Part shown: positions 1,520 through 35,298 of the stretch, one piece after another | How the letters are laid out: every line of letters begins with the position of its first letter | Numbering within the stretch: position 1 is the first letter of the stretch | Source of the DNA: Fidelibacterota bacterium | GTDB taxonomy: Bacteria; Fidelibacterota; UBA2242; JAOZSR01 | Length of the DNA: 36,531 bases | Assembly (NCBI GenBank): GCA_029939575.1 | Contig: JAOZSR010000028.1 | Coordinates: 1 to 36,531, forward strand | Direction: 5' to 3' | The notes under the pieces: model-generated | What the model was told of the DNA's origin: nothing | The model's database searches: none | The model's input: the letters and a program-made list of their open reading frames with translations, nothing else | Made by a program: the position numbers and the translations under genes

Positions 1520-4336
1520 ATGATGAATAAACAGTACAAACTATTTTGTTTTATTATAATATTAGGCCTACAAATATTAATGGCCCAGATTCCTGATGGT
1601 TATTATTCCAATGCTGAGGGATTATCCGGCAATGCGCTCAGGAATGCTCTCCATAATATTATAGACGATCATTCGGAATATTCCTATGATGCTTTACGAG
1701 ATTATATTTTAAAAAACTCTGATGAAGATCCAAATAATTCTAACAATATCATTCTGTTATATACTGGTCGTTCTCAACCGAAATCATCTTTTGGTGCAGG
1801 TTCGAATGACTGGAACCGAGAGCATGTATGGGCAAAATCCCATGGTGATTTTGGAAACAATCCTCCCTGTGGAACAGATGCACACCATTTACGTCCGACT
1901 GATTCATCAGTAAATTCAAGCCGTGGAAATAAAGATTTTGACAATGGCGGTACACCGCATAGTGAAGCAACCGGTTGTAACACAGACACTGATTCATGGG
2001 AGCCCAGAGACGAAGTAAAGGGTGACGTCGCCAGGATGATTTTGTATATGGATGTACGATATGAAGGTGATAATGGAGAACCCGATCTGGTTGCTGTTGA
2101 TTATGTTAATTCTTCACCAAATAAAGAACCCAGACATGGCAAACTTTCTACTCTTTTGGAATGGCATCTTGAAGATCCGCCTGATAATTTTGAAATTCAC
2201 AGAAATGATGTTGTATATAGCTATCAAAATAACCGGAATCCATTCATTGATCACCCTGAATACGTAGGAATGATATGGGGAGATGGTCCCCAAATGCCAT
2301 CAAACATCCAATTTTCAAACCTGACTCAAAACTCAGTAACCCTTGCCTGGAATGACAACTCAAATAACGAATCTGGTTTTAATTTGTATCAAAACTCTGA
2401 TCTGATTCAAACTTTAAATCCAAATACAACCTCGATCCAAATAGACAACCTGGAACCGAATACAAAATATTTATTTGGATTGTCAGCTTTTAATAATGAC
2501 GGTGAATCTGCAAAAATTACTATTGAAATAACAACTTTGCCCGCTCCTCCGTTAACATATACAATTATGAGTTATAATATCCAAAATTATGGTGAAGAAC
2601 CATCGGAAGATACTGATCGAAAAGATGATTTGAGAAATATCATCAATTCAGTTGATCCGGATATTTTAATTGTCGAAGAAATCTGGGGAAATTCCGGGAA
2701 TCAGGATTTTTTGGATAATATTCTCAACTACGAAGAGACTCTTTATAATTCTGCATTTATTGATCAATTTTGTTGGCAAGACATTGGACTTTACTATAAG
2801 ACTGAGCATCTGACAGTTAATTCTATTCAGACTATAGATATTGCTACAGATTATCTGCGCGATGCCCTGAAAGTAAATTTCACCGAAGACGAGCACAGCA
2901 CCAGTTTCAATGTATATAGTCTTCATCTAAAAGCCAATACTTCCGACAATATCCAGGATGACATTGATACCCGGGCAAGTCAGACTGCAGCTTTAAGAAA
3001 CTATCTGAATACACTGGATGAAGACTCCTATTTCCTGGTTGTTGGAGATTTCAACATTCTAAATGCTTCTGAATCGGGATGGCAAAATCTAACCAATTCG
3101 GAAAATGAAAATACAGGCAGAGTTTTTGATCCTATTAATCAGGTTGGAGAATGGAACAGCAATCAAAACTTTGCTCCCTATCATACTCACAGCACAAGAT
3201 ATTCTTCCAGTTATCCAAACTCCAGCGGTTTAAGAACCAGGCTGGATTTTATTCTTACATCTGAACAGGTTCTTTTGCCGGGAGGAATGGAATTTATTGA
3301 GGATTCTTATATAACCTATGGAAATGATGGTAACCACTTTGGCGATGCTGTAAATTATCAAACAAATTCTGCTGTTTCGTCAGAAATCGCAGATGCCCTT
3401 TATAATGCTTCAGACCATTTGCCGGTTTATGCAGATTTCCGTTTCACCAGAACACTGGAAAATGCAGAAAACCTTTTCTTTTCCGAATATATTGAAGGTT
3501 CAGTTTATAACAAGGCACTGGAAATATATAATGGTAGTCAACAGGATGTTTGTTTAGACGGATATCAGATTATTAGTAATTTTAATGGTAATTCCTGGAA
3601 TGAAGAAAACTATTCCTTTCCTGCCGGGCAAATTCTCGGGCAAGAAAATGTCTGGGTGGTTGCTAATTCCCAGGCTGAAACCGAAATACTAAATAATGCA
3701 GATGATATTCTGCCTAATAACCAGGCCGGGTATGTTGTTGGATTTAACGGAAATGATGTAAGAGCGCTTGTCAAAATAGATGGAATTGACACAACCTTTC
3801 TTGATTTTATTGGAAATTTTAATGGAATTGATCCGGGTGACGGCTGGTCTGTAGCCGGGATAGAAGATGCCACAAAAGACCACACCCTGATTAAAAAAAC
3901 CGGAGTTTTACGGGGAAACACGGACTGGCTGGTTTCAGCCGGAGATTCGGAAGAAAATTCAGAATGGTTGGTTTTTGAAAAAGATTATTTTAGTAACCTT
4001 GGATTTCATAATAATGACGTAGATATTATACCGGAATCCCACAATGAAATTTTGGAAGGATTTAAACTTCTTTCAAATTTCCCCAATCCCTTTAATCCGG
4101 AAACTAATATTGAGTTCTCAATCCAAAAACCTGCCAATATTAAAATTTCTGTTTTTAATATTAAAGGTCAGCATATAAAAACTCTGATCAATAAAAATTT
4201 TCAGTCTGGTTTGCATAGAATTACATGGAATGGAACAAATAGCAGTAATTGCAGAGTTGTCAGTGGTATCTATTTCTACCAAATGGCAACAGAGGATGGC
4301 TTTTCTCAAACTAAAAAAATGATATTATTGCAATAA
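1520..4336 (+). CDS. Secreted multidomain nuclease: endonuclease I + endonuclease/exonuclease/phosphatase domains with C-terminal sorting-type module
   Basis: Likely an extracellular DNase/RNase that degrades environmental nucleic acid. Domain order over 938 residues: signal peptide (about 1-22, ending LQILMA); endonuclease I domain (about 25-255) with the NREHVWAKSHG and DAHHLRP motifs expected of the EndA/NucM family; fibronectin type III (about 263-343); endonuclease/exonuclease/phosphatase domain (about 350-660) with MSYNIQNYG, IVEEIWG, VVGDFNI and SDHLPVYADF; a lamin-tail-like domain (about 665-835) beginning FFSEYIEGS and containing KALEIYN; and a C-terminal beta-sandwich (about 850-938) with NFPNPFNPET and SGIYFYQM. 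The last module is the FlgD-like/T9SS type A class, implying secretion and surface attachment. The start is chosen for the AAAAAGGA site 6 bases upstream; a second ATG follows directly. The gene stands alone, convergent with the PLP enzyme gene 18 bases downstream. Confidence 0.9.
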   Translation: MMNKQYKLFCFIIILGLQILMAQIPDGYYSNAEGLSGNALRNALHNIIDDHSEYSYDALRDYILKNSDEDPNNSNNIILLYTGRSQPKSSFGAGSNDWNREHVWAKSHGDFGNNPPCGTDAHHLRPTDSSVNSSRGNKDFDNGGTPHSEATGCNTDTDSWEPRDEVKGDVARMILYMDVRYEGDNGEPDLVAVDYVNSSPNKEPRHGKLSTLLEWHLEDPPDNFEIHRNDVVYSYQNNRNPFIDHPEYVGMIWGDGPQMPSNIQFSNLTQNSVTLAWNDNSNNESGFNLYQNSDLIQTLNPNTTSIQIDNLEPNTKYLFGLSAFNNDGESAKITIEITTLPAPPLTYTIMSYNIQNYGEEPSEDTDRKDDLRNIINSVDPDILIVEEIWGNSGNQDFLDNILNYEETLYNSAFIDQFCWQDIGLYYKTEHLTVNSIQTIDIATDYLRDALKVNFTEDEHSTSFNVYSLHLKANTSDNIQDDIDTRASQTAALRNYLNTLDEDSYFLVVGDFNILNASESGWQNLTNSENENTGRVFDPINQVGEWNSNQNFAPYHTHSTRYSSSYPNSSGLRTRLDFILTSEQVLLPGGMEFIEDSYITYGNDGNHFGDAVNYQTNSAVSSEIADALYNASDHLPVYADFRFTRTLENAENLFFSEYIEGSVYNKALEIYNGSQQDVCLDGYQIISNFNGNSWNEENYSFPAGQILGQENVWVVANSQAETEILNNADDILPNNQAGYVVGFNGNDVRALVKIDGIDTTFLDFIGNFNGIDPGDGWSVAGIEDATKDHTLIKKTGVLRGNTDWLVSAGDSEENSEWLVFEKDYFSNLGFHNNDVDIIPESHNEILEGFKLLSNFPNPFNPETNIEFSIQKPANIKISVFNIKGQHIKTLINKNFQSGLHRITWNGTNSSNCRVVSGIYFYQMATEDGFSQTKKMILLQ

Positions 4337-4354: not shown

Positions 4355-5818
4355 TTAAAGTAATCCCACCATATCATTGAATTCTCTGGTAACATTATCG
4401 ATTGCCGGGGCCATAGCCTGAATTTTTCCCCAATAATCTTCATAATCATACCATTGGGCGTTAAGTTCATCCAGGGAACTTCCCTGTTGTTCGATCCATG
4501 TAAAATATTTCAGATTATGAATCCGTTTTTTATCATAGTATGAAAGTTCCATGACGTTATCAATTTTCTGTCCCATTAAATGCTGAGCAAAAGTTCTTTC
4601 AGCGTCACTGGTTTGAAAACGGCCATATTTATCATCATATTCTTTAAGACGAGATTGATATAATTCCATTGAATCCGTAAAAATTGTAAATACAATATCA
4701 TTTTCATCAAGCTCGTAATATTTAGCAAATTTTATTGCAGCAAGCACATTACCAATACTTGAAATTCCAAGTAAATCTAATTGGTCACATGTTTCTTTAT
4801 CAATGCCTGTTTTTTGGAGAAAATCACGTCCTTCCGGTTTGTTAAAAAGTGGAATCAGGTTCATACAATCATTATCATCAACGGCGATAACCATATCAGT
4901 ATTACGAGTATTATGAATCCAGGGTACATGTTTGTCACCAATACCTTCTATACGATGACCACCATAACCATTATACATCAAAGTTGGACATTGAAGCGCT
5001 TCACTGGCAACGATTTTAACATTTGGATATAGTTTTTTTAAATAATCGCCACTCGCGATTGTACCACCTGATCCGGTGGCCGAGACCAATCCGGCTACCC
5101 GATCTTTTGGCCCTGCAATTTTATTAACGACTTCTTCAAAAGCCTTGCCCGTAACTTCATAATGCCATAAATGATTTCCAAATTCATCAAACTGGTTAAA
5201 AATCATTACATCGTCGCGGGTTTTTCTTAACTCCCAACATTTATCGTAAATCTCTTTTACATTACTTTCACAACCCGGGGTTGCAATCACTTCCCCCGCA
5301 ACATTTTTGAGCCATTCAAAACGCTCTTTACTCATCTCTTCCGGTAAAATCGCGATAGATTCACAGGCTAAAAGCGCTGAATTATATGCACCACCCCGAC
5401 AATAATTTCCCGTTGACGGCCAAACAGCCTTATGAACGGTAGGATCAAATTGCCCGGTTACAAGTCGCGGAACCAGGCAGCCATAAGCTGCACCCACCTT
5501 GTGTGCACCGGTAGGGAACCATTTACCCACCAGCCCAATGACCCGGGCCTTTACCCCGGTTAATTCTGAAGGCAGTTCCAGAAAATTGACATCTCCATAC
5601 AAACCACCACTTTCTTTCGGTTCATTTTTCCAGGTAATCCGAAAGAGATTTTCCGGTGTAATATCCCACAAACCTTTATTTTTAAGTTTAGATTTTATTT
5701 TCCCATCTATTTTTTCAGGATTTACCTGTTCTTCAAAAGTAGGGATAATAATATTTCTTTCGCGACAGCGTTTTACAGTACGTTTTAATTGTTCCGGGTA
5801 TTTTTTTAAATCAATCAT
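4355..5818 (-). CDS. TrpB-like fold-type II PLP-dependent enzyme, substrate unknown
   Basis: A 487-residue cytoplasmic pyridoxal-phosphate enzyme of the tryptophan-synthase-beta/cysteine-synthase fold. The Schiff-base lysine is probably in TGAHKVGAAYG, which resembles TGAHKVN of TrpB. A glycine-rich phosphate loop follows later (SATGSGGTIASG). It is longer than cysteine synthase (about 310) and TrpB (about 400) and carries extra N- and C-terminal segments, so it belongs to a separate subfamily. I do not recognise a named reaction. It is the last gene of the operon with the molybdenum hydroxylase subunits, 15 bases after the large-subunit stop, with AGGAA before its ATG. This suggests it acts in the same catabolic route, for example eliminating or cleaving an amino-acid-like intermediate. 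That role is inference. Confidence 0.75.
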   Translation of the reverse strand: MIDLKKYPEQLKRTVKRCRERNIIIPTFEEQVNPEKIDGKIKSKLKNKGLWDITPENLFRITWKNEPKESGGLYGDVNFLELPSELTGVKARVIGLVGKWFPTGAHKVGAAYGCLVPRLVTGQFDPTVHKAVWPSTGNYCRGGAYNSALLACESIAILPEEMSKERFEWLKNVAGEVIATPGCESNVKEIYDKCWELRKTRDDVMIFNQFDEFGNHLWHYEVTGKAFEEVVNKIAGPKDRVAGLVSATGSGGTIASGDYLKKLYPNVKIVASEALQCPTLMYNGYGGHRIEGIGDKHVPWIHNTRNTDMVIAVDDNDCMNLIPLFNKPEGRDFLQKTGIDKETCDQLDLLGISSIGNVLAAIKFAKYYELDENDIVFTIFTDSMELYQSRLKEYDDKYGRFQTSDAERTFAQHLMGQKIDNVMELSYYDKKRIHNLKYFTWIEQQGSSLDELNAQWYDYEDYWGKIQAMAPAIDNVTREFNDMVGLL

Positions 5819-5833
5819 GAAAATTCCTAACTT

Positions 5834-8137
5834 TTATTTTTGTTTTAATTTTTCATATATTTTTTCTGCTGTTAATGGTAATGAATGAATCCTAATGCCA
5901 ACCGCATCATAAATTGCATTGGCAATCGCCGGACCAGGTCCGTTAATTGCAATTTCACTAACAGATTTTGCACCATAAGGCCCGGAAGGTTCGTAAGTCG
6001 GAACTAAAATAGTTTTTAGATCCGGCAAATCAGCAGCGGTAAATATTTTGTATCTGCCAAAATCAGCATTGACCATTTTACCATTTTCATTAAACTTATA
6101 TTCTTCTGTTAAAGCCCAGCAAAGCCCATTTACTACCGCACCTTCGACCTGCCCCTCCGCTAATTTTGGATTAATCGCTGTTCCACAATCTACAGCTGCC
6201 ACATATTTAACAATAGAAAATTCTCCGGTGGCAGTATCAACTTCGACCTCTGCAAAATGTGCAGAAAAAGGTGGTGGTGACACATCAGCAATATTTGAAG
6301 CAGTAGCCTGTATCTGCAGCTGGTTATTAGTATAAAGTGCATAAATACAAATATCTTTAAAATCTAATTTCCCACCAGTCCATATAACCTGTTTATTTTT
6401 TAATTCCAATTTTTCGATGGGAATATTCGCCATTTCCGAAGCAACTTTAAAAATCTCTTCTTTAATTTTCAATGCACATTTTCTAACAGCTTCACCGGAA
6501 ATAAAAGTGGTAGAAGAAGCATAGGCACCAACATCAAAAGGTGTCTGGTCAGTATCCGAGGACAATACAATAATGTCTTCAATGTCAACACCTAAAGTTT
6601 CAGCTGCAATCTGCCCCAGAATAGTATCCGATCCGGTTCCAATATCAGTAGCTCCGATATCTAAATTGAAAGAGCCGTCTTCGTTCATTTTCATATAAGC
6701 GGCACCCATATCAATTCTTGGAATTCCAGAGCCCTGCATCAAACAAACCATACCCACTCCGCGCGCTCTGGTTCCATTTATTATTCTTTTATTGCGTTTG
6801 CTGTTCCAGCCAATCTCTTTAGCGCCCAGATCAATACACTCTTCAAGGCCACAGGAATCGACTATCATTTTAACTCCCTCTTTCCCCTCTCCAAGTTTTT
6901 CAAAAATCGGAGAGGATTCGCCGACTTTGATTGTATTTTGCTTATAAAAATCCAACACATCCAGATCAATCTTCCTGGCCATCATATCCATAACCTGACC
7001 AACAGCAAAATATGACTGAGTAGCTCCATATCCACGATATGCTCCGCCAACCGGCAAATTTGTATATACTGTAGTTCCGGCAAATCTCTGGTGAGGGACT
7101 TTGTTTGTCAGAGGCAGGACTTTTGATCCGCCATTGGAAAGAACCGTTAGGGCATGTGAACCATAAGCTCCGGTATTCATAAGAGCTTCAATACCCAGGG
7201 CGTGAATTTGTCCATTTTTATTTAAGCCCGATCTGATAGTAACCCGCATTGGATGTCGGGTTCTGGAAGACTGAAAAACCTCTGCTCTGGTATAAACAAT
7301 TTTAGCAGGTCGCCCTGTTCTCAAGGTAAACAAACCGGCCACATATTCTAAAAAAACCTCCTGTTTTCCACCAAAACCACCCCCGATTCGCGGTTTTATA
7401 ACCCGAATTTTTTTTATTGGAATCTGCAAAACCATAGCACAGATTCTTCTAACATGAAATGGAACCTGGGTAGCGGTGATAATTACCAGACGATTATTCT
7501 CATCTAAATATGTTACTACACCATGAGGTTCCAGCATTGCATGAGCACCATAATGAGTATAAAAGGTTTCTTCGAATCTATAATCACTCTCTACAATACC
7601 TTGTTCCAGATTTCCAATATCAATATTAACTTCTGCTGCAATATTTTTTTCAGGGTAATAAGGGATTGGAATGGGATATTTTTTATCCTTTTCGGAATGG
7701 AGAACGGTTGTTCCCTTATCCATTGATTTTTCATAATCAAAGACAGCTTCAAGAATTTCATATTCTACCTTAATCCTGGAAATTGCTTCAATAGCAATCG
7801 CCGGAGTTTCCGCCAGAACAGCAGCAACCCGATCTCCTACAAAACGCATAATATTATCAAACATCACAGCATCATAGGGCGATGGCTCGGGAAATCCCTG
7901 TCCGGCTGTTGTATGTAAAATCCGGGGAACATTTTTAAAATGTAAAATATCAATAACACCATCAATTTTCTCAGCCTGAGATGTATCGATTGACAATATT
8001 TTCGCATGAGCATGGGGTGAAAAAAGCATTTTTATATATGCTTCATCAGGAAATGAATAGTCATCATAAAACTTCATCCGGCCGGTACTTAGAGACAAAC
8101 TGTCAATTTTCTTTACTGATTTTCCAACTGTTTTCAT
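5834..8137 (-). CDS. Xanthine-dehydrogenase-family molybdopterin-binding (large) subunit
   Basis: Catalytic subunit of a three-subunit molybdenum hydroxylase (xanthine dehydrogenase/CO dehydrogenase CoxL family), about 767 residues. Such enzymes hydroxylate aromatic heterocycles or aldehydes with water. Visible motifs: GGGFGGKQE and GGAYRGYGATQ near the cofactor, GTGSDTILGQIAAETLG in the second half, and C-terminal SVSEIAINGPGPAIANAI, whose Glu fits the active-site Glu of the family (AVGEPP in xanthine dehydrogenase). I cannot assign the substrate. The nicotinate/purine hydroxylase branch looks closer than CO dehydrogenase, because no AYRCSFR-type loop is present. The open frame extends to a TTG at 8149, but I prefer ATG at 8137, which has GGTGG six bases upstream. 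Third gene of the operon. Confidence 0.88.
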   Translation of the reverse strand: MKTVGKSVKKIDSLSLSTGRMKFYDDYSFPDEAYIKMLFSPHAHAKILSIDTSQAEKIDGVIDILHFKNVPRILHTTAGQGFPEPSPYDAVMFDNIMRFVGDRVAAVLAETPAIAIEAISRIKVEYEILEAVFDYEKSMDKGTTVLHSEKDKKYPIPIPYYPEKNIAAEVNIDIGNLEQGIVESDYRFEETFYTHYGAHAMLEPHGVVTYLDENNRLVIITATQVPFHVRRICAMVLQIPIKKIRVIKPRIGGGFGGKQEVFLEYVAGLFTLRTGRPAKIVYTRAEVFQSSRTRHPMRVTIRSGLNKNGQIHALGIEALMNTGAYGSHALTVLSNGGSKVLPLTNKVPHQRFAGTTVYTNLPVGGAYRGYGATQSYFAVGQVMDMMARKIDLDVLDFYKQNTIKVGESSPIFEKLGEGKEGVKMIVDSCGLEECIDLGAKEIGWNSKRNKRIINGTRARGVGMVCLMQGSGIPRIDMGAAYMKMNEDGSFNLDIGATDIGTGSDTILGQIAAETLGVDIEDIIVLSSDTDQTPFDVGAYASSTTFISGEAVRKCALKIKEEIFKVASEMANIPIEKLELKNKQVIWTGGKLDFKDICIYALYTNNQLQIQATASNIADVSPPPFSAHFAEVEVDTATGEFSIVKYVAAVDCGTAINPKLAEGQVEGAVVNGLCWALTEEYKFNENGKMVNADFGRYKIFTAADLPDLKTILVPTYEPSGPYGAKSVSEIAINGPGPAIANAIYDAVGIRIHSLPLTAEKIYEKLKQK

Positions 8138-25972: not shown

Positions 25973-26012
25973 AAAAAAATCCTTCCATATAAACATCATA
26001 CAGAAGGATTTT
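25973..26012 (-). terminator. Rho-independent terminator after the Kbl-type gene
   Basis: On the minus strand AAAATCCTTC (26012-26003) pairs with GAAGGATTTT (25985-25976) across a 17-base loop and runs directly into further Ts. It lies 18 bases after the stop of the second Kbl-type gene and closes the acpS-kbl-acsA-acp-kbl cluster, separating it from trmH. Confidence 0.75.
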
Positions 26013-26029
26013 GATATTTTTGATTCTTT

Positions 26030-27277
26030 TTATAATCCGTACATCTCAATGATTTCTTTTTTGGATTTGCCAAGAATATTATATTTTTTACCAATCCTGG
26101 TAAAAGCTGCCAGGGCTTTATCAAGGTGATGAATTTCATGTCCGGCAGAAATCTGGGTGCGAATTCTGGCCTGACCTTTTGCAACAACCGGGAAGAAAAA
26201 CCCAATTGCATAAATTCCCTCTGCAAAAAGGTCACGAGAAAAATCCTGGGATAGTTTTGCATTAAATAACATAACCGGAACAATTGGAGTGTCTCCCTCT
26301 TTCAAAACAAATCCGGCTTCCTGCAAACCCTTTCTCCAGTAATCAGAATTTGTCTCAAGTTTGTCTCTGCGTTCTGTGCTGCCTGACAAAATATCCAAAA
26401 CTTTTAAGACGCCAGCCACAATTACCGGCGCCATAGTATTTGAAAACAGGTAAGGACGAGCTTTTTGTCGACACATATCCACAATCTCTTTTCTACCCGA
26501 GACACAACCACCGGAAGCGCCACCAAGTGCCTTGCCAAAGGTGGTCGTAATAATATCAATTTTACCAAACACACCACATTTTTCATGAGTACCACGACCG
26601 GTTTTCCCAATAAAACCTGTTGAATGGGAATCATCAACAAACAACATAGCGTCGTATTTTTCACATAATTCTACCATTTCATCCAGCTTTGCAGTATCTC
26701 CATCCATAGAAAAAACACCATCTGTAATCACTACTTTTAATCGTTTATCAGAATGGAGTTGCAACTTTTTCTCCAGATGTTTCATATTAGAATGTTTAAA
26801 AGTGTCATGCATTGCTGCGCATAACCGCATTCCATCAACAATAGAGGCATGAACCAGGCGATCAGAGATCATGACATCCTCAGCCGTTAGAATTGCTTCA
26901 AAAACTCCGGCGTTAGCATCCATACATGACGGAAATAAAATAGTATCTTCAGTGCCCAAAAATTCACTTACCTTTTTTTCCAGTTTGTCATGAATATCCT
27001 GGGTACCACAAATAAATCTTACGGAAGACATTCCATAACCACGGGTATCCAATCCTTCGTGAGCTGCTTTTATCACATCCGGATGGCTGGACAGACCCAG
27101 ATAATTATTAGCACACATATTGATTACTTTTTCCAATTTTGAGCCAATCGGATATTCCACTTCAATATCCGCAGCCTGGGAAGAATGGATAAAGCGTTCC
27201 TCTTTATAAATTCCACCATTTATAATTTCTTCTAACTGTTCCTGATAAATATTTCTTACTTTGGAGCTAAAACCCAT
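26030..27277 (-). CDS. Alpha-oxoamine synthase, diverged Kbl-like paralogue
   Basis: A 415-residue PLP enzyme of the glycine C-acetyltransferase (Kbl)/AONS family, which condenses an amino acid with an acyl thioester with loss of CO2 or CoA. The PLP lysine is Lys249 in TTTFGKALGGASGG, and the cofactor-binding VDDSHSTGF is intact. Compared with E. coli Kbl and the paralogue at 29488, the active-site region differs: LVHASIVDGMRLCAAMHDTF replaces LNHASIIDGVRLCKAKR, and FPSCMDANAG replaces YSSCFDANGG. This suggests a different acyl donor or acceptor. It has a strong AGGAGGT site and follows the acyl carrier protein gene by 66 bases. Candidate roles are glycine C-acetyltransferase or a carrier-protein-dependent synthase; I cannot choose from sequence alone. 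Confidence 0.85.
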   Translation of the reverse strand: MGFSSKVRNIYQEQLEEIINGGIYKEERFIHSSQAADIEVEYPIGSKLEKVINMCANNYLGLSSHPDVIKAAHEGLDTRGYGMSSVRFICGTQDIHDKLEKKVSEFLGTEDTILFPSCMDANAGVFEAILTAEDVMISDRLVHASIVDGMRLCAAMHDTFKHSNMKHLEKKLQLHSDKRLKVVITDGVFSMDGDTAKLDEMVELCEKYDAMLFVDDSHSTGFIGKTGRGTHEKCGVFGKIDIITTTFGKALGGASGGCVSGRKEIVDMCRQKARPYLFSNTMAPVIVAGVLKVLDILSGSTERRDKLETNSDYWRKGLQEAGFVLKEGDTPIVPVMLFNAKLSQDFSRDLFAEGIYAIGFFFPVVAKGQARIRTQISAGHEIHHLDKALAAFTRIGKKYNILGKSKKEIIEMYGL

Positions 27278-27343
27278 TGTTACCTCCTGATTTTAATTCA
27301 ATTATTATCCTGAAAAATCTTTGTCGCTAAAGTATAAATTGAA

Positions 27344-27589
27344 TTATGCTGTAAATTCATTTACCAGTGCAACAATTTTATTGACATTATCAAAAGCTTC
27401 GGGAGTTGCTTTATCATCAGGAATAGAAATCTTGTATTTATTTTCCAAAAACCGTTTCAGAGATACCATCGAGAAAGAATCCACAATACCACCTGAAATC
27501 AAAGGTGTATCATATGTTAGTTCCTCATCCTCATCTTCAAGATATTCCTCAATCACATATTCTAAAATAATGTCTTTCATTTCTTCCAT
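27344..27589 (-). CDS. Stand-alone acyl carrier protein
   Basis: An 81-residue acidic four-helix carrier protein. The phosphopantetheine serine is Ser38 in GGIVDSFSMVSL, a DSF-type site where fatty-acid ACPs usually have DSL. The sequence therefore looks like a specialised carrier rather than the housekeeping AcpP. Helix III contains EAFDNVNKIVALVNEF. It has a near-consensus AAGGAG site before the ATG. It lies between an AcsA-like adenylating enzyme (59 bases before) and a Kbl-like condensing enzyme (66 bases after), with acpS in the same cluster, so it probably carries the acyl group or product between them. Confidence 0.88.
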   Translation of the reverse strand: MEEMKDIILEYVIEEYLEDEDEELTYDTPLISGGIVDSFSMVSLKRFLENKYKISIPDDKATPEAFDNVNKIVALVNEFTA

Positions 27590-27648
27590 TTTGTCTCCTT
27601 TTACATTTTTTAATGATACAATTTTTATCTCTTCTAATAAAATCTCAA

Positions 27649-29355
27649 TTAGTCATCATCTTCAAGAGTCGAAGTATCTCCGATTTCTTCGCCCCACTCT
27701 TTAGCGTGCAGGAGTCTACGCATAATTTTCCCACTTCGGGTTTTCGGTAGATTTTGGACAAACTCAATTTCCTGAGGCATTGCCAGTGGTGATAATTTTT
27801 TACGGATAAAATTCATAATCTTTAGCTCGATATCCGGATTAGCCTCTATCCCGGGTGTTAAAGTCACAAAAGCCTTCACAACTTCCATATTCACTTCATC
27901 TGGCTTGGCAACAACTGCAGATTCTGCAACCATTTCATGTTCCAATAACGCAGATTCCACTTCAAAGGGACTTACCAGATGTCCACCGGTATTTATCACA
28001 TCATCGTCACGCCCGACAAACCAAAAATATCCATCTTTATCGATGCTGGAACGATCACCTGGCAAATACCATCCGTTTTTGAACTTGCTCTTATAAGTTT
28101 CTTCATTATTCCAGTAAGTCCTCATCATTGACGGCCAGCCCGGTTTAAAAGCTATCAGCCCTATTTTACCAGGTTCTTTAATTGGCTCAAATGTTTTATT
28201 ATCAACTACCGTGGCAGTTATTCCCGGAAAGGGTTTTCCCATTGATCCCGGTTTAATTTTCATATCGGGAAAATTAGTCAACATCATAGAGCCGGTTTCA
28301 GTTTGCCAGTAAGTATCAAGAAAAGCATGACCAAACACTTTTTCAGACCAGATAACCGCCTCGCTATTTAGTGGTTCACCAACACTTGCCAAATGACGTA
28401 AAGTAGACAGATCATATTCCTTTACCAAATCATCTCCGGCTTTCATCAATGAACGGATAGCTGTTGGCGCAGAATACCAGACAGTGACTTTATGTTTATT
28501 AATAAATTCATACCAGGAGCGTGCTGAAAATCCTGTATCGAGAACACACTGTGTAATACCCAAACTCCAGGGGCCAATAATTCCATAAGATGTTCCTGTT
28601 ACCCAGCCCGGATCAGCAGTACACCAGTAAACATCATTTTCCTGTAAATCCAGAACCCATTTGGTAGTCAAATATTGCGAGATAAGGGAATAATGAACAT
28701 GTTGTACACCTTTTGGCTGTCCTGTAGTACCGGAGGTATAATGAAGTACAGATGGGCTTTCTGCTTTGGAAGGAAAAATATCCAAATTTTCAACCGGATT
28801 GGCAGTTTCAAGAGAAAATGCTATTTCTCTTTCCCTTAGAGGTTTTTTGCCTTGATCATCAACAATAATAATATCCTTGAGAAAGTTTGATTTTTCAAGA
28901 ATACGTCGAACTTTCCCAACATGTTTTCTCTGAGTAATAATTGCTTTGGTTTGAGCATTTTCAAGACGAACAAATAGAGATTCTTCCCCAAAAGCAGAAA
29001 ACAACGGTTGAACAATCGCCCCGATTTTCAAACCACCTAAAAAGCTAAAATAAAGTTCCGGAATTTTGTCCATAAATAAACAAACCCGGTCCCCGTCCGC
29101 AATACCTAAAAATTTCAAAAAGGCACCAATTGTATTACTTGCCAAACGGACATCGTTAAAAGTGTATTGCTTTTCTTTTCCTCCTAAACCTTCCCAGATC
29201 AATGCAGTTTTATCAGCCTTACCCATTTCACAAATCCGATCAGAACAGTACCAGCCAATATTAATATTATCACCATCTTTGTAACCAAGTTCTTTCTCAG
29301 AAATTGACCAATCAAAATTTTTCACACGATCATTATAAGAACCAATGTTTGACAT
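27649..29355 (-). CDS. AcsA-like acyl-CoA synthetase (AMP-forming, ANL family)
   Basis: A 568-residue adenylating enzyme closely resembling Bacillus AcsA acetyl-CoA synthetase. ANL motifs are visible: LHYTSGTTGQPKGVQHVH (P-loop), WCTADPGWVTGTSYG, TYWQTETGSMM, GWYLPGDRSSIDKDGYFWF and the C-terminal KTRSGKIMRR with the acetylatable lysine. The chain starts with an AcsA-type region (YNDRVKNFDWS). The frame opens further upstream at 29418, but ATG at 29355 has GGGGAG five bases upstream, so I take that. Acetate or a short acid is the likely substrate. In this cluster it could load the acyl group on CoA or directly on the neighbouring carrier protein; the second option is inference. Confidence 0.87.
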   Translation of the reverse strand: MSNIGSYNDRVKNFDWSISEKELGYKDGDNINIGWYCSDRICEMGKADKTALIWEGLGGKEKQYTFNDVRLASNTIGAFLKFLGIADGDRVCLFMDKIPELYFSFLGGLKIGAIVQPLFSAFGEESLFVRLENAQTKAIITQRKHVGKVRRILEKSNFLKDIIIVDDQGKKPLREREIAFSLETANPVENLDIFPSKAESPSVLHYTSGTTGQPKGVQHVHYSLISQYLTTKWVLDLQENDVYWCTADPGWVTGTSYGIIGPWSLGITQCVLDTGFSARSWYEFINKHKVTVWYSAPTAIRSLMKAGDDLVKEYDLSTLRHLASVGEPLNSEAVIWSEKVFGHAFLDTYWQTETGSMMLTNFPDMKIKPGSMGKPFPGITATVVDNKTFEPIKEPGKIGLIAFKPGWPSMMRTYWNNEETYKSKFKNGWYLPGDRSSIDKDGYFWFVGRDDDVINTGGHLVSPFEVESALLEHEMVAESAVVAKPDEVNMEVVKAFVTLTPGIEANPDIELKIMNFIRKKLSPLAMPQEIEFVQNLPKTRSGKIMRRLLHAKEWGEEIGDTSTLEDDD

Positions 29356-29487
29356 AAAATCTCCCCGATGTTTGCAGACAGAAGTAACAGATCCGATAAC
29401 TATTTCTTCTAATATCATTGTCGAATTGTTATTTTCATCCTGCCCATGTTCATTTTTTCATAAAGTTATTAATAATACATTTTTACC

Positions 29488-30711
29488 TTATGCACACATT
29501 GAAAGTATCTCTTTCCTGGATTTTCCCAGGATATTTAATTTCTTACCAACTTTTTTAAATGCTTTCAAAGCCCTGTCCAGATCCTCCCGGCTGTGAGCGG
29601 CTGACAACTGAACTCTGATTCTGGCCTTGCCAATCGGAACTACCGGATAGGCAAAACCAACTACATAAACACCTTCATCCATTAACATATCGGCCATTTT
29701 CAGAGCCAGCGGTTCATCATGAATCATAACCGGAACAATTGCAGTTTCACCGGGAACAATATGAAAACCGGCGGCTTCAATTCCCTTGCGAAAATACAGA
29801 GCATTTTCCATAACCCTATTTCGCAAATCCTGTGATTCTTCCAACATTTTTATAACATGTAGTGTAGTTCCGGCAATTACAGGTGCTAAGGTATTGGAAA
29901 ACAAATAAGGACGTGAGCGCTGACGCAACATCTCAATTATCTCTTTTTTGCCTGAAGTGCATCCTCCCGATGCTCCTCCCAAAGCTTTCCCAAAAGTGGT
30001 TGTAATAATATCCACCTGGTCGATCACTTTAAAATACTCATGAGTTCCCCGGCCATTTTTTCCAATATAACCGGTAGAATGGGAATCATCAACCATAACA
30101 AGAGCGTTATATTTTTCTGCAAGATAACAGATCATATCCAATTTTGCAATATCACCATCCATGGAAAAAACACCATCAGTTACAATCAGGCGGTATTTAC
30201 AGGAAGCAGATTCTTTTAAACATCTTTTCAAATCCGCCATATCAGAATGGGCATAACGAAATCTCTTGGCTTTACACAACCGAACTCCATCAATAATAGA
30301 AGCATGATTTAATTCATCGGAGATAATCGCACATTCATCATCCAGTAATGGCTCAAAAATTCCGCCATTTGCATCAAAACAGGCTGCATATAAGATTGTG
30401 TCTTCTGTTCCCAGAAATTTTGAAACCTCTGCTTCCAGTTCTTTGTGTATATCCTGGGTTCCACAAATAAATCTGACCGACGAAAGTCCATATCCCCATT
30501 TTTTCATAGCCTCATGTGCTGCATTTATAACATCAGGATGATTTGCCAGACCAAGATAATTATTTGAACAAAAATTCAATACCTGACTCCCATCTTTTAC
30601 TCTAATTGTGGCTCCCTGGGGAGTAGAAATTATCCGCTCTTCTTTATATAATCCCTTTTCTTTAATAGTCTCAATTTTATTCCTGATATCTTTTTTCATT
30701 TCTCTGAACAT
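29488..30711 (-). CDS. kbl: Glycine C-acetyltransferase (2-amino-3-ketobutyrate CoA ligase) or close relative
   Basis: A 407-residue PLP enzyme very similar to E. coli Kbl, which joins glycine and acetyl-CoA or runs in reverse in threonine breakdown. Conserved stretches: NFCSNNYLGLANHPDVI, SSVRFICGTQDIHKELE, LNHASIIDGVRLCKAKR, MVDDSHSTGYIG and Lys242 in TTFGKALGGASGG. Threonine dehydrogenase (tdh), the usual neighbour, is absent. Instead the gene follows acpS by 12 bases and precedes an AcsA-like gene and an ACP gene. This argues for a role in an acyl-carrier pathway, or for a local acetyl-CoA to aminoketone route. Of the two paralogues in the window it keeps the canonical active-site residues. 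Confidence 0.87.
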   Translation of the reverse strand: MFREMKKDIRNKIETIKEKGLYKEERIISTPQGATIRVKDGSQVLNFCSNNYLGLANHPDVINAAHEAMKKWGYGLSSVRFICGTQDIHKELEAEVSKFLGTEDTILYAACFDANGGIFEPLLDDECAIISDELNHASIIDGVRLCKAKRFRYAHSDMADLKRCLKESASCKYRLIVTDGVFSMDGDIAKLDMICYLAEKYNALVMVDDSHSTGYIGKNGRGTHEYFKVIDQVDIITTTFGKALGGASGGCTSGKKEIIEMLRQRSRPYLFSNTLAPVIAGTTLHVIKMLEESQDLRNRVMENALYFRKGIEAAGFHIVPGETAIVPVMIHDEPLALKMADMLMDEGVYVVGFAYPVVPIGKARIRVQLSAAHSREDLDRALKAFKKVGKKLNILGKSRKEILSMCA

Positions 30712-30723
30712 ATTTCTTTACCT

Positions 30724-31098
30724 TTATTTTTCCAATGTAACATTTGCACAGGCATATTCTTTAATATGAGATATAGAAAGGTGAACTTTTATCAGGTTAT
30801 GTTTTTTATAAACCTCGGCAGTTTTGCCGGATAGCGTCATTGCCGGTTTACCCAGATCATCATTAGTGATTTCAATATCCCGAAATCCCATTCCATCGCG
30901 CATTCCGGTGCCAAGTGCTTTGAAAAATGCCTCCTTGGCAGCAAACCGGCCGGCATAATTCTGAGCCTTGCTCCTTTTTGGTTCACAATAAGCTATTTCA
31001 GCCGAAGTAAATATTTTTTCTTTAAATTTATTCCTACCTGAAATCTGCTTATTTATCCGCTCAACTTCAATAATATCTATTCCAACCCCAAAAATCAT
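30724..31098 (-). CDS. acpS: Holo-[acyl-carrier-protein] synthase
   Basis: A 124-residue phosphopantetheinyl transferase of normal AcpS length. It moves 4'-phosphopantetheine from CoA to the serine of an acyl carrier protein. The GVGIDIIEVERI motif at the N-terminus and AGRFAAKEAFFKALGTG in the centre hold the Mg2+ and CoA-binding residues (Asp8, Glu near 57). An AAAGG site precedes the ATG. It is the first gene of the kbl-acsA-acp-kbl cluster, and the ACP at 27344 is the obvious local target. It may also be the only AcpS of the genome, which cannot be judged here. Confidence 0.94.
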   Translation of the reverse strand: MIFGVGIDIIEVERINKQISGRNKFKEKIFTSAEIAYCEPKRSKAQNYAGRFAAKEAFFKALGTGMRDGMGFRDIEITNDDLGKPAMTLSGKTAEVYKKHNLIKVHLSISHIKEYACANVTLEK

Positions 31099-31309: not shown

Positions 31310-32285
31310 TTAACTTGCTGTTCTTTTTCCTGCTTTTCTGTCGGTATATTGCTTTTTGATCCATTGACATGTTGGTTTCATACCTTCGAAAATAGTCATT
31401 GTTGGTTCCCAGCCAAGAAGTTTTTTTATATAAGTATTATCACTGTTTCTACCAGCAACACCTTTGGGTTTATCAAGATTATATTCACGCTTGATTTTTA
31501 CACCAAGAATATCTTCGGCAATATCAGCCAGTTTATTAATTGAAATCATTTCGCCGGAGCCAAGATTGAGAGGAGTGGCAATTGTGTCACGGCAATGCAT
31601 AATCCGAAAAATTTCCTCTGTACATTCGTCAATATACATAAAACTTCTGGTCTGATTTCCATCTCTTTTTCCAGGAATACTTCCTCACATTTTTGCTCAC
31701 CAATTAATTTTTCCCATCCATATCCTCTCTCTGCATCTGCAGGGTAAGCATCGCTTTCTTTCAGAGCAGTAACATCGTGAACCTGTTGTAATGTAGTATT
31801 ATAAGCACAGGCTGACGAAGAAAAGAAATATCTTGTGACACCACTTTTTGATGCTGCTGTTACCATATTATCATTGATTCTGCTACTATTTATCAGGCAA
31901 TCAACTCTAGGAGTTTCAATAAATCCCATTCCACCCATATCAGCAGCAAGATTATATACTTTAACAGCACTTTCACATATTCTTTCACAATTGTCATAAT
32001 CTTTTAGGTCAAAAGACTCAGGTTAGTGACACCCGGTGTGGTCTGATACCATTCATACAAAGGCTTTATATCAACAGCTAAAATATTGGCAAAACCTTTA
32101 TTTTTTAAAAATTTTACTAATCCACCAGCTCCAGTTATTACTATGCGGTTATTGGGATTCAATTTTTCACCATATTCGGTATCAATCATTTCAGATTCCG
32201 GCACAGGATCAGCAGCATTAAAATATTCCGGTTCTCAACCATTGGCTAATTTTTTTTTCAACATCTTTTCTTGTTGCATGTGACA
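31310..32285 (-). pseudogene. Decayed GDP-mannose 3,5-epimerase-like gene (SDR epimerase)
   Basis: Fragments in several frames together match GDP-mannose 3,5-epimerase, which would turn GDP-mannose into GDP-L-galactose/L-gulose. The ATG at 32285 opens MSHATRKDVEKKI, then a frameshift leads to NNRIVITGAGGLVKFLKNKGF, where about five residues of the GxxGFIG Rossmann loop are missing. A further shift near 32020 leads to VYNLAADMGGMGFIETPRV, FSSSACAY and KESDAYPADAERGYGWEKL (the YxxxK-type site reads YGWEK). A junction near 31663 loses about 45-50 residues of the substrate domain and changes frame again. The C-terminal part (NQTRSFMYIDEC, NLGSGEMISINKLADI, GVAGRNSDNTYIKKLLGWEP) ends at 31310. At least three disruptions rule out a working enzyme. 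An assembly error is possible but would need several independent indels. Confidence 0.85.
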
Positions 32286-32348
32286 TAACTATCTCCTAAT
32301 CTTTTAAAACCGGATTATCTGATGTACAGAAAATATTTAATGCTATAC

Positions 32349-33410
32349 TTATGTTAATTTTTCTTTACCTTGTTTATGTAATTCCTGGATTATCTGGCTT
32401 ACTTTTTCTGCTTCAGATTTTTTTGCAATTAAAATTGCGCCTTTGTCTTCCACAACAATCAAATCTTCCAACCCGATAGCCACAATTTGTTTGTCTTTTG
32501 AATAGAAATAATTATTCTTCGAACCAATATTAATTAATTCCCCCTTAACCACATTGCCATTTTCATCTTTTTCGCTGATATCATACACAGAATTCCAGGC
32601 TCCAACATCATTCCAATCAAATGTGGCCTTGAGAACACTTACTTTATCCGCCTTTTCCATAACAGCATAATCAATTGAATCTGCCGGTATTTTTTCCCAC
32701 TCCTGCTTTAGGATGCGTGAATAATCCTTCGTACCAATTACCTGTTTAATCTGTTGTAATGGGTTATAAAGGTCAGGTACATTGGTTTTGATTTCTGCTA
32801 AAATCGTATCAACTTTCCAGATGAACATCCCGCTATTCCAAAGAAAATTACCCTGAGCGAGAAAATCTCTGGCTATCTTTTCATTTGGTTTTTCACGAAA
32901 TTGTTTCACTCCATAGATTTCATTTTCTGCGCCTGATTCATCAAATTCAATATATCCAAATCCGGTTGAAGGTCTGGTTGGTTGAATACCAAAAGTAACC
33001 AGGTTTTTGCTTTTCCTGGCGAATTCCCCGCCTTTTAACACAAGCTGTTTAAATTTTTCAGTATCCTTAATTAAATGATCAGAGGGGAATACACTCATAA
33101 TAGCGTTGGGATCTTTTGACTCTATTTGAATCGCAGCCAGGCCAATGCAGGGAGCAGTGTTTTTCCCACTGGGCTCCACGATCATATTTTCAGACGGCAT
33201 TTCAGGTAATTCCTGTTTGATAGAATCTTCCAGGTGAGGACCTGCAACAACATATATTTTATCAGGTGTAGTGATTTGCTTCATCCTGTCAAAGGTTAAG
33301 CGTAACATAGTTTCATCAGAAACAATGTCGAGTAATTGTTTTGGAGTATTTTTTCGGCTTCTGGGCCAAAATCTTTTTCCACTTCCACCAGCCATTATTA
33401 CTATATGCAT
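32349..33410 (-). CDS. manC: Mannose-1-phosphate guanylyltransferase
   Basis: A 353-residue cytoplasmic nucleotidyltransferase making GDP-mannose from mannose-1-phosphate and GTP. The signature AGGSGKRFWPRSR with the following Lys in TPKQLLDI, the FPSDHLI motif and REKPNEKIARDFL are all intact. The length fits the monofunctional enzyme without the phosphomannose isomerase domain of bifunctional ManC/AlgA. AAGGAG precedes the ATG. Its stop is 63 bases before the start of the decayed epimerase gene, so both once formed an operon for a GDP-sugar of a surface glycan. The enzyme itself looks functional and may serve other GDP-mannose uses. Confidence 0.94.
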   Translation of the reverse strand: MHIVIMAGGSGKRFWPRSRKNTPKQLLDIVSDETMLRLTFDRMKQITTPDKIYVVAGPHLEDSIKQELPEMPSENMIVEPSGKNTAPCIGLAAIQIESKDPNAIMSVFPSDHLIKDTEKFKQLVLKGGEFARKSKNLVTFGIQPTRPSTGFGYIEFDESGAENEIYGVKQFREKPNEKIARDFLAQGNFLWNSGMFIWKVDTILAEIKTNVPDLYNPLQQIKQVIGTKDYSRILKQEWEKIPADSIDYAVMEKADKVSVLKATFDWNDVGAWNSVYDISEKDENGNVVKGELINIGSKNNYFYSKDKQIVAIGLEDLIVVEDKGAILIAKKSEAEKVSQIIQELHKQGKEKLT

Positions 33411-33644: not shown

Positions 33645-33673
33645 TTGACTAAAGCAAATGTATTCTGTAATCT
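33645..33673 (+). promoter_or_regulatory. Possible promoter of the flavin reductase-like gene
   Basis: TTGACT (33645-33650) is followed after 17 bases by a weak -10, TAATCT (33668-33673). If real, transcription starts near 33680, which supports the ATG at 33742 over the earlier in-frame ATG at 33658 that lies inside the promoter. Confidence 0.35.
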
Positions 33674-33741
33674 ATGTAAGATCCACTGCTTATCTTAGAA
33701 GAATAATTTACATAATTTCAAAATCAGGGAGAAAAAAACAA

Positions 33742-34617
33742 ATGGGTAATATTTTTTTTGACATTGAAAATGATATAAATCTTATGATGAATTACAGATA
33801 TGTTCAACCCCCTCAGATTGCATATTTTGTAACAACTATGGATGAATTTGGAAATGTCAACAGTACTCCTGCAACCCTGGGAACCTGTAACAGCGCCAAT
33901 CAACCGAGAGATGGGAAACCGGCCGAGTATTTTCTGACCTTTTCCCTGGTCAGAAAACTGCTAAAAGATGATGGAAATTATTTACCGGCACGTGATGGAT
34001 TTGTTAATTTGCAACACAGTGACGAAGCGGTCATAAGTTATATTCCTGTAAATTTAATGCAGGAAAGTATAGTTGCAAACTTACCCTTTCCAAGAGGCAT
34101 TAGTGAACTTGAAGTGGCTGGTCTTCATACTTTCAGATCCAGGAATATTGAAGTCCCGTCAATTGAAGAGTGTCCGATTAATATCGAATGTAAAATTATC
34201 AATCAAATGGATTTGGGCGAAACCTATATGCTTTATGTTGCCAAAGTTGTTGGTGTAAGTGTCAATCAATCACTTGTAGATATTGATAATAAGGGTTTGG
34301 GAGTTTTTCTGATTGACCCTTTGTTTGAAATTAATATTACACGTACAAAAAATGGTAATTCCAGGCTGAATTACGGACAACTTGATAGGAATAAAATATC
34401 AATTCCCGGAGATAATTTCGGTTCAACCGGTGATTGGGTTGGCACTTTTGAGAACTTTATTAAAAGTGAAGTCGGAAGAGGTAAAATTACAAAATCTGAA
34501 CATAATCAAATTTTAGACCTGAAAAATCAATTTGTCAAAGACAGAAGCAATCGAGACGTAAAGAATAAACTTACCCAATTACTCAAAAAAGCGGTATATG
34601 GGGAGAAATTTCAATAA
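33742..34617 (+). CDS. Flavin reductase-like domain protein (FMN-binding split barrel)
   Basis: A 291-residue probable flavoprotein of the flavin-reductase-like (DIM6/NTAB) group. The pattern PPQIAYFVTTMDEFGNVNST near the N-terminus, NLMQESIVANLPFPRG and ISELEVAGLHTFRSRN in the middle, and CKIINQMDLGETYMLYVAKV later follow the family order, where FMN is bound between subunits. The C-terminal 70 residues are charged, helical and not typical, with no clear homology. Function could be flavin reduction for an oxygenase, or nitroreductase-like chemistry. The frame is open from 33658, but I choose ATG 33742 for the AGGGAG site ten bases upstream and the promoter position. It is a single gene. Confidence 0.75.
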   Translation: MGNIFFDIENDINLMMNYRYVQPPQIAYFVTTMDEFGNVNSTPATLGTCNSANQPRDGKPAEYFLTFSLVRKLLKDDGNYLPARDGFVNLQHSDEAVISYIPVNLMQESIVANLPFPRGISELEVAGLHTFRSRNIEVPSIEECPINIECKIINQMDLGETYMLYVAKVVGVSVNQSLVDIDNKGLGVFLIDPLFEINITRTKNGNSRLNYGQLDRNKISIPGDNFGSTGDWVGTFENFIKSEVGRGKITKSEHNQILDLKNQFVKDRSNRDVKNKLTQLLKKAVYGEKFQ

Positions 34618-34702: not shown

Positions 34703-34735
34703 GCATCGGTGATGCCGATGCAAATCCGATTTTTT
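34703..34735 (+). terminator. Probable terminator of the flavin reductase-like gene
   Basis: A 7-bp stem GCATCGG (34703-34709)/CCGATGC (34715-34721) with loop TGATG is followed after eight bases by a T-run (34730-34735). An alternative pairing ATCGG/CCGAT (34726-34730) directly abuts the T-run. It lies between the convergent reductase and antitoxin genes, and the T-run overlaps the antitoxin stop codon. Confidence 0.5.
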
Positions 34736-35021
34736 ATTTTATGTGAGTCGAATTTCGTTCAATTAATTTACCAGATAAATATTTATGTAGTATGCTTGTA
34801 ACCATTGTTTGATATGGTAAGCCCTCTTCAACTGATTTTGATTTTAATTTTATCAAATCTCTTTCAGATATTCTTATATTTATTCGTTTATTTTTTAGAA
34901 TTGTATTTCTGGCTATTAGACTGTATTTCTTTTTATCACTTTCAATATTAGGTGAAGAAATCCACTCATCATTTTCAAAAGATTTAATAATATCTTCTTC
35001 GTATTCTGTATATTTATTCAT
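34734..35021 (-). CDS. BrnA/CopG-type antitoxin
   Basis: A 95-residue DNA-binding antitoxin. The ribbon-helix-helix part is the C-terminal half: KNKRINIRISERDLIKLK forms the beta-strand and first helix, and GLPYQTMVTSILHKYLSGKL the second helix, as in BrnA/CopG-antitoxin proteins. The acidic N-terminal half (YEEDIIKSFENDEW) probably binds the toxin. Its start overlaps the toxin stop by eight bases, so translation is coupled and, as in other BrnTA loci, the toxin gene comes first. The antitoxin probably represses the shared promoter at 35305-35333. Confidence 0.83.
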   Translation of the reverse strand: MNKYTEYEEDIIKSFENDEWISSPNIESDKKKYSLIARNTILKNKRINIRISERDLIKLKSKSVEEGLPYQTMVTSILHKYLSGKLIERNSTHIK

Positions 35022-35298
35022 TTATATTTCTCCTCAAATATTTCTTTGTTGCATTACGACTGGGAATAATCGTTTTTAGAAAAACTTTCTTATCATCTTC
35101 AACAAAAGGAATTAAATAAACATAGTTTTCATGTTCAATAATAAAAATAGATTGATTTGGATATTTTTGCTTATTCGGATTATCAATTTTATCTAAAAAT
35201 TTTTCTTCGTGTAAATAATTTACAATTTCTTCAAAAGAAATATTTCTTTCTCTTTTTAATTTTTGATTTTTTTCTTCATTCCAATCAAAATATTTCAT
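35014..35298 (-). CDS. BrnT-family toxin (RelE-like ribonuclease)
   Basis: A 94-residue BrnT-type (DUF497) toxin, expected to cut RNA and stop growth unless bound by its antitoxin. Family features: KYFDWNEEKNQKLKRERNISFEEIV at the N-terminus (the WDxxKxxxNxxKHGVSFEEA pattern), a central beta-strand region, and C-terminal KTIIPSRNATKKYL (the RxISARxATxxE pattern). The ATG lies only six bases after the -10 box, so the transcript is probably leaderless or nearly so; no Shine-Dalgarno is present. The pair sits immediately beside an integron attC site, a common place for toxin-antitoxin cassettes. Confidence 0.82.
   Translation of the reverse strand: MKYFDWNEEKNQKLKRERNISFEEIVNYLHEEKFLDKIDNPNKQKYPNQSIFIIEHENYVYLIPFVEDDKKVFLKTIIPSRNATKKYLRRNINE

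Follow-up and report, generated by a model that had tools for sequence, protein, structure and literature searches.

The five-gene locus and its distribution

The DNA analyzed here, hereafter the window, is a stretch of 36,531 nucleotides (contig JAOZSR010000028.1, assembly GCA_029939575.1) from a bacterium of the phylum Fidelibacterota. It contains a locus of five genes combining a private acyl carrier protein (ACP) with two synthases of the Kbl (glycine C-acetyltransferase) type, arranged as acpS-kbl1-ligase-ACP-kbl2, all in the minus strand and separated by 12, 69, 59 and 66 bp. The first gene, acpS (30724..31098), codes for a phosphopantetheinyl transferase (TIGR00516, 120 bits, cut-off 59.8) and is followed by kbl1 (29488..30711; TIGR01822, 647 bits, cut-off 493), an AcsA-like, AMP-forming ligase (27649..29418; PRK04319, 744 bits, cut-off 729), the dedicated ACP (27344..27589) and kbl2 (26030..27277; TIGR01822, 566 bits). 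For the ligase we prefer position 29355 as the likely true start over 29418, because it sits behind a GGGGAGA ribosome-binding site and gives a protein of 568 amino acids, the median length of its relatives. Carrier models match the ACP weakly; the best of them, for the ornithine-lipid ACP OlsHI (NF052616), reached 64 bits against a cut-off of 130 and this identity was rejected. Behind kbl2 there is a hairpin with an A+U-rich stem of 17 bp and a U run (25975..26020, minus strand; -18.1 kcal/mol, z -3.7). A consensus scan based on G+C does not list it because the scan demands G+C pairs; the hairpin rests on folding, which supports it as the intrinsic terminator of a five-gene operon. The five same-strand genes and closing terminator of the original prediction, made from the letters of the window, are thus in place.

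When one genome of each GTDB species was scanned with the 81-amino acid ACP as query, at least 297 relatives emerged. The best 80 of them matched it along almost its full length at 71–91% identity and belonged to Bacteroidales and other Bacteroidetes, Delongbacteria, Aminicenantes/Acidobacteria, Zixibacteria and a few metagenome-assembled genomes (MAGs) labelled Chloroflexi or Proteobacteria. Nearly all loci had the ligase, the ACP and Kbl2 in that order and in one strand, usually together with acpS and often with a second Kbl, and we refer to this set as the module. The recurrence of an identical order in dozens of genomes from several phyla places the arrangement far beyond chance. The linkage of a private ACP with an adenylating enzyme and a synthase of the Kbl type, noted in the original prediction, is supported. 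Across phyla the ligase was mostly 72–82% and Kbl2 74–87% identical, well above AcpS (mostly 45–60%) and the second Kbl (about 56–63%). This second, CoA (coenzyme A)-type Kbl was found in about half of the loci, and in eight Delongbacteria-type loci it lies directly behind Kbl2. The module is patchy, since within the phylum of the window the ACP was found in 7 of the 199 sampled genomes, all from one order, plus two weak matches. Such a distribution, together with the high identity between phyla, suggests that the module has been transferred as a block.

The coupling between the ACP and Kbl2 could be followed in 247 genomes of the order to which one Bacteroidales MAG (G214) belongs. The ACP was detected in 21 of them and a Kbl2-type protein in 21, with 20 having both (Fisher p about 3e-27). 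In the genome with the ACP only (G356) this protein was 46% identical and had a different gene context. In the one with Kbl2 only (G279) a Kbl2-like protein is encoded (L148, C450, 4367-5656) with neither ACP nor ligase adjoining, and it is a natural mosaic with Kbl2-like ends and a Kbl1-like middle that keeps the CoA stretch CKAQRLIY described below. With both exceptions explained, the ACP is a near-obligate partner of Kbl2. The mosaic, coming from a genome devoid of the ACP, is also a ready-made control enzyme.

Features of the carrier protein, the ligase and the two synthases

The ACP has a pI of 4.05 and its nearest solved structures are carrier proteins. Ser38, within the motif GGIVDSFSMVSLKRF, was conserved in 88/88 relatives, and the stretch around this carrier serine (PLISGGIVDSFSMVSLKRFLE) was almost invariant. 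One related locus (L044) carries two ACP copies flanking the ligase (3616-3861 and 5705-5977), 70% and 79% identical to that of the window. AcpS, present in 55 of the 81 related loci, is expected to convert the private ACP to holo-ACP. The genome has two matches to PF01648, the operon AcpS being one of them and the other a divergent AcpS-type phosphopantetheinyl transferase (L110 1414-1779, G000:C137). Given this second enzyme, the AcpS of the operon might be dedicated to the private ACP.

In the ligase, the four residues of the acetate pocket (V273, T274, V346 and W371, equivalent to V310, T311, V386 and W414 of Acs, a list that we take to be established for that enzyme) were conserved in 69–72 of 72 relatives, so that acetate is the likely substrate. 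The pattern of residues at the acceptor site is ambiguous between CoA and ACP: the arginine of the A8 motif (R526 in E. coli) is a leucine in 72/72 ligases and S523 is a glycine or an alanine, while the equivalents of R194 and R584 are kept. We predict the enzyme to be an acetyl-ACP ligase. A search of the genome gave no further close homologue of AcsA.

The two synthases are not equivalent. Kbl1 is 59% identical to the E. coli Kbl and 54% to Kbl2, and has an orthologue (72% identical) at the same position in two loci of the order of the window (L111 and L114). Sequence similarity to solved Kbl structures is high. The difference lies in a basic stretch located, in this enzyme family, at the CoA nucleotide, which reads CKAKRYRY in E. 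coli Kbl, CKAKRFRY in Kbl1 and CSAMHDTF or similar in Kbl2. This stretch was lost in 78/78 Kbl2 proteins and in 20/20 further ACP-linked copies (some genomes overlap between both sets), whereas the other CoA-type Kbl examined stay basic. At the positions of E. coli K147, R150 and R152, lost in nearly all, Kbl2 has mostly serine, alanine or proline, histidine, and threonine, respectively, with an invariant aspartate at that of Y151. The equivalent of R144 (R151 in Kbl2) is kept in all 78. In human 5-aminolevulinate synthase 2 (ALAS2), which belongs to this family, Arg293 and Lys299 are located at the adenine/3'-phosphoadenosine of CoA (PMC7272653). Counting from the active-site histidine (His285 in ALAS2, His143 in Kbl2), these correspond to R151 and H157 of Kbl2, the latter an arginine in E. 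coli Kbl. The pattern is good evidence, albeit not proof, that Kbl2 would no longer prefer CoA, and Kbl1, with its basic stretch retained, is predicted to be CoA-dependent.

All 78 Kbl2 proteins keep the Kbl catalytic residues (the equivalents of K244, H136, D210, H213, S185, N50 and R368), and the V79 equivalent is Kbl-like in all of them. Beside the pyridoxal phosphate (PLP) two changes, F112 to methionine and N135 to valine in E. coli numbering, were found in 78/78. In the tree Kbl2 forms one clade (support 0.96), nested in a larger one that also includes the second Kbl of Delongbacteria, of the CoA type, and the G279 mosaic. Other identities were rejected by model scores: those for serine palmitoyltransferase (SPT) gave 228–314 bits with Kbl2 (cut-offs 500–670), that for the CAI-1/LAI-1 alpha-hydroxyketone autoinducer synthase (NF005526) gave 197 bits (cut-off 428), and the synthases scored under the cut-offs for BioF and ALAS. 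Kbl2, which passes the Kbl model and fails in the CoA-surface feature, is best called a putative ACP-linked Kbl subfamily.

Threonine dehydrogenase and other neighbours

The original prediction had separated the locus from threonine dehydrogenase (TDH), the usual partner of Kbl, and had raised the question of whether the same gene order in other genomes excludes tdh. Its absence held for the window and failed for the genome, where a zinc-type TDH is encoded in another contig (G000:C26:5966-6979; 489 bits, cut-off 458). Far from being excluded, TDH was present in 39 of 41 module genomes, 30 of them with the short-chain dehydrogenase/reductase (SDR) type and nine more, i.e., that of the window and eight Delongbacteria-type genomes, with the zinc type. 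Of the other two genomes, one had a weak match and one was 72% complete, its contig ending just past acpS. Within the order of the window, TDH of the SDR type heads the operon in four loci and is absent from the operon of the window. The arrangement is TDH-AcpS-Kbl1-ligase-ACP-Kbl2 in L111, likewise in L114 (ended by the contig edge before Kbl2), and TDH-AcpS-ligase-ACP-Kbl2 in L112 and L113. The gene also adjoins the module in several other phyla, and it was located directly upstream in the same strand in L015, L020, L030, L031 and L047. The SDR protein matches solved L-threonine 3-dehydrogenases (2yy7, 1.1e-126). In the Bacteroidales-order sample TDH was present in 20/20 module genomes vs. 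160/227 of the others (p 0.0013), and it was found within about 9 kb of the module in 9 of 21 cases. The background of SDR-type TDH in the phylum of the window is 41/199 genomes. The proximity of TDH to the module is strong evidence of a link, its mere presence modest evidence.

Among the 81 module loci, an acetate uptake transporter of the SatP type (NF038013, 273 bits, cut-off 50) was found nearby in 31, usually behind Kbl2, an ADP-forming acetyl-CoA ligase in 15, a symporter of the SSS/ActP type in five and a DUF485 protein in four. Other recurring neighbours in Bacteroidales look incidental. The conserved pocket and these adjoining acetate transporters favour acetyl as the short-chain acyl group that had been anticipated. 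No genes for tailoring enzymes recur beside the module in the loci compared, and a lipid or secondary-metabolite cluster was rejected, the neighbours being SatP, TDH, the ADP-forming acetyl-CoA ligase and ActP/DUF485. The idea of a lipid or cofactor precursor as the product has thus lost ground, weakened also by the co-occurrence and operon position of TDH.

Elsewhere in the window, a nucleotide-sugar epimerase gene broken into several frames (31310-32290, minus strand) immediately precedes acpS; it reads like GDP-mannose 3,5-epimerase and follows a mannose-1-phosphate guanylyltransferase gene (32349-33410). The SDR remnant at 31310-31938 was considered as a decayed TDH and rejected; its best match is GDP-fucose synthase-like, of nucleotide-sugar epimerase character. 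Apart from a flavin-reductase-like domain (PF01613, 33 bits), no match was obtained for a 319-amino acid protein encoded in the plus strand (33658-34617). Finally, two small overlapping genes are located at 34734-35298 (minus strand), the first of them BrnT-toxin-like (PF04365, 31 bits, slightly under the cut-off) and the second a possible antitoxin of this BrnT-type toxin.

Proposed pathway and comparison with known systems

Taken together, we consider it probable that the genes of the locus serve an ACP-dependent version of the TDH-Kbl pathway, in which acetate would be joined to glycine and threonine via acetyl-ACP. AcpS would arm the private ACP, and the ligase would then load it in the reversible reaction acetate + ATP + holo-ACP <-> acetyl-ACP + AMP + pyrophosphate. 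Kbl2 would catalyze acetyl-ACP + glycine <-> 2-amino-3-ketobutyrate + holo-ACP, and TDH, encoded at a distant locus here and by the first operon gene in relatives, would interconvert 2-amino-3-ketobutyrate plus NADH with threonine. Kbl1, with its CoA-type surface, could exchange 2-amino-3-ketobutyrate with acetyl-CoA, while the private carrier would hold its acetyl pool apart from acetyl-CoA. We slightly favour acetate activation as the net direction, because this is the usual direction of AcsA enzymes and transporters for acetate uptake are encoded beside the module. In a broader sense, there is about an even chance that the module is a widespread node of central metabolism where acetate, glycine and threonine are interconverted on a private ACP without recourse to the acetyl-CoA pool, be it as an acetate-to-threonine route or as an ATP-yielding fermentation of threonine.

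Several observations weigh against this interpretation. With the equivalents of R194 and R584 kept, CoA could remain the acceptor of the ligase, and one of the two CoA contact positions known from ALAS2 (Arg293, R151 in Kbl2) is kept in all Kbl2. The changes at F112 and N135 beside PLP mean that the amino-acid or acyl substrate of Kbl2 could differ from that of Kbl. TDH is common anyway, being found in 180 of the 247 genomes (73%) of the Bacteroidales-order sample, hence the modest value given above to its presence alone. Furthermore, the module genomes examined are mutually related and mostly incomplete MAGs.

The same enzymes and intermediates could operate in the catabolic direction, a possibility that we hold only tentatively: TDH would oxidize threonine, Kbl2 would yield glycine and acetyl-ACP, the reversed ligase would make acetate and ATP, and SatP would export the acetate. 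There is a precedent in Syntrophus aciditrophicus, where an AMP-forming acetyl-CoA synthetase generates ATP with acetyl-CoA, AMP and pyrophosphate as substrates (PMC4992975), and the TDH inside the operon of relatives and the ADP-forming acetyl-CoA ligase near 15 of the 81 loci would fit as well. However, the adjoining transporters are annotated for acetate uptake, and the ActP-type neighbours normally serve acetate scavenging. It is also conceivable, if unlikely, that Kbl2 forms some other aminoketone (from a different amino acid or acyl group) out of an ACP-bound acyl chain, for a lipid, a signal or a cofactor. The two Kbl2-specific replacements beside PLP would be consistent with it, as would the known ACP-using alpha-oxoamine synthases, which make precursors of sphingolipids and sulfonolipids (PMC9386255, PMC9304779). 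Against this stand the Kbl-like catalytic residues, including the V79 equivalent, in all Kbl2, the scores under cut-off with the SPT, BioF, ALAS and CAI-1/LAI-1 synthase models, the lack of recurring tailoring genes and the presence of TDH in the operon of relatives.

Two further explanations seem to us improbable, both to a similar degree. The pair of synthases might act as an acetyl shuttle, possibly as a heterodimer, with Kbl2 making 2-amino-3-ketobutyrate from acetyl-ACP and glycine and Kbl1, with CoA, giving acetyl-CoA and glycine, so that acetate activated on the ACP would be delivered to CoA. In its favour, Kbl1 is part of the operon in the window, L111 and L114, and a CoA-type Kbl accompanies about half of the loci, following Kbl2 directly in eight of the Delongbacteria type. 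On the other hand, a second Kbl is not seen in many loci, the task could equally be done by an ordinary acetyl-CoA synthetase, and the TDH in the operon would be left unexplained. Alternatively, the ACP could be incidental, a carrier with some other role beside an acetyl-CoA synthetase and a glycine C-acetyltransferase of the ordinary, CoA-dependent kind. The ligase and both Kbl do pass the curated cut-offs for CoA enzymes, and R194 and R584 have their equivalents in the ligase. This explanation has against it the near-perfect ACP-Kbl2 coupling in 247 genomes, the loss of the CoA stretch in ACP-linked Kbl only and the near-invariance of the ACP around its serine.

Enzymes of the Kbl type are annotated everywhere as CoA enzymes. 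Here, a Kbl clade from several phyla, with at least some hundreds of species that are little studied and mostly uncultured, appears to have swapped CoA for a dedicated carrier that a separate enzyme of the module would load with acetate. If true, metabolic reconstructions of the use of threonine, glycine and acetate in these bacteria would change, and carrier-protein chemistry would extend to small-molecule primary metabolism. Being few and apparently soluble, the proteins lend themselves to direct testing in vitro. The module is real and widespread and, as far as the open-licence literature shows, undescribed, since we found no mention of an ACP-linked Kbl or an acetyl-ACP ligase in open-licence full texts.

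With the classical TDH-KBL pathway (tdh-kbl of E. coli, C. necator; PMC9814548) the locus shares a Kbl-type synthase with all the catalytic residues, a co-occurring TDH (in the operon of relatives) and, presumably, the intermediate 2-amino-3-ketobutyrate. It differs in the addition to the operon of a dedicated ACP, AcpS and an acetate ligase, and in a Kbl2 devoid of the basic CoA-nucleotide stretch. The ligase resembles AcsA (PRK04319; PDB 9g79) in overall sequence, adenylation motifs and acetate pocket, but has the A8 arginine replaced by leucine in all 72 sequences, adjoins an ACP gene and has holo-ACP as its predicted acceptor. SulA, the cysteate acyl-ACP transferase of Alistipes, prefers acyl-ACP over acyl-CoA (PMC9304779) and is, like Kbl2 by prediction, an alpha-oxoamine synthase of the acyl-ACP type; unlike Kbl2, it uses cysteate and the long-chain acyl-ACP of fatty acid synthesis and lacks an acetate ligase as partner. 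In Rhodobacteria, the acyl-ACP used by SPT is made by a specialized synthetase that acts solely on its own ACP (PMC9386255). The original prediction had noted that the layout echoes such loci, and the likeness holds: this AcpR/AasR/SPT system also pairs a private ACP with an alpha-oxoamine synthase and with an enzyme of the adenylating superfamily, an acyl-ACP synthetase there and, by prediction, here. Judging by the failure of the SPT models, the locus is not a member of that system, and it has a Kbl-type synthase instead of SPT, an AcsA-type ligase with an acetate pocket, and TDH as partner in place of sphingolipid genes. By analogy, the module would work like a cross of the TDH-KBL pathway and the AcpR/AasR/SPT system.

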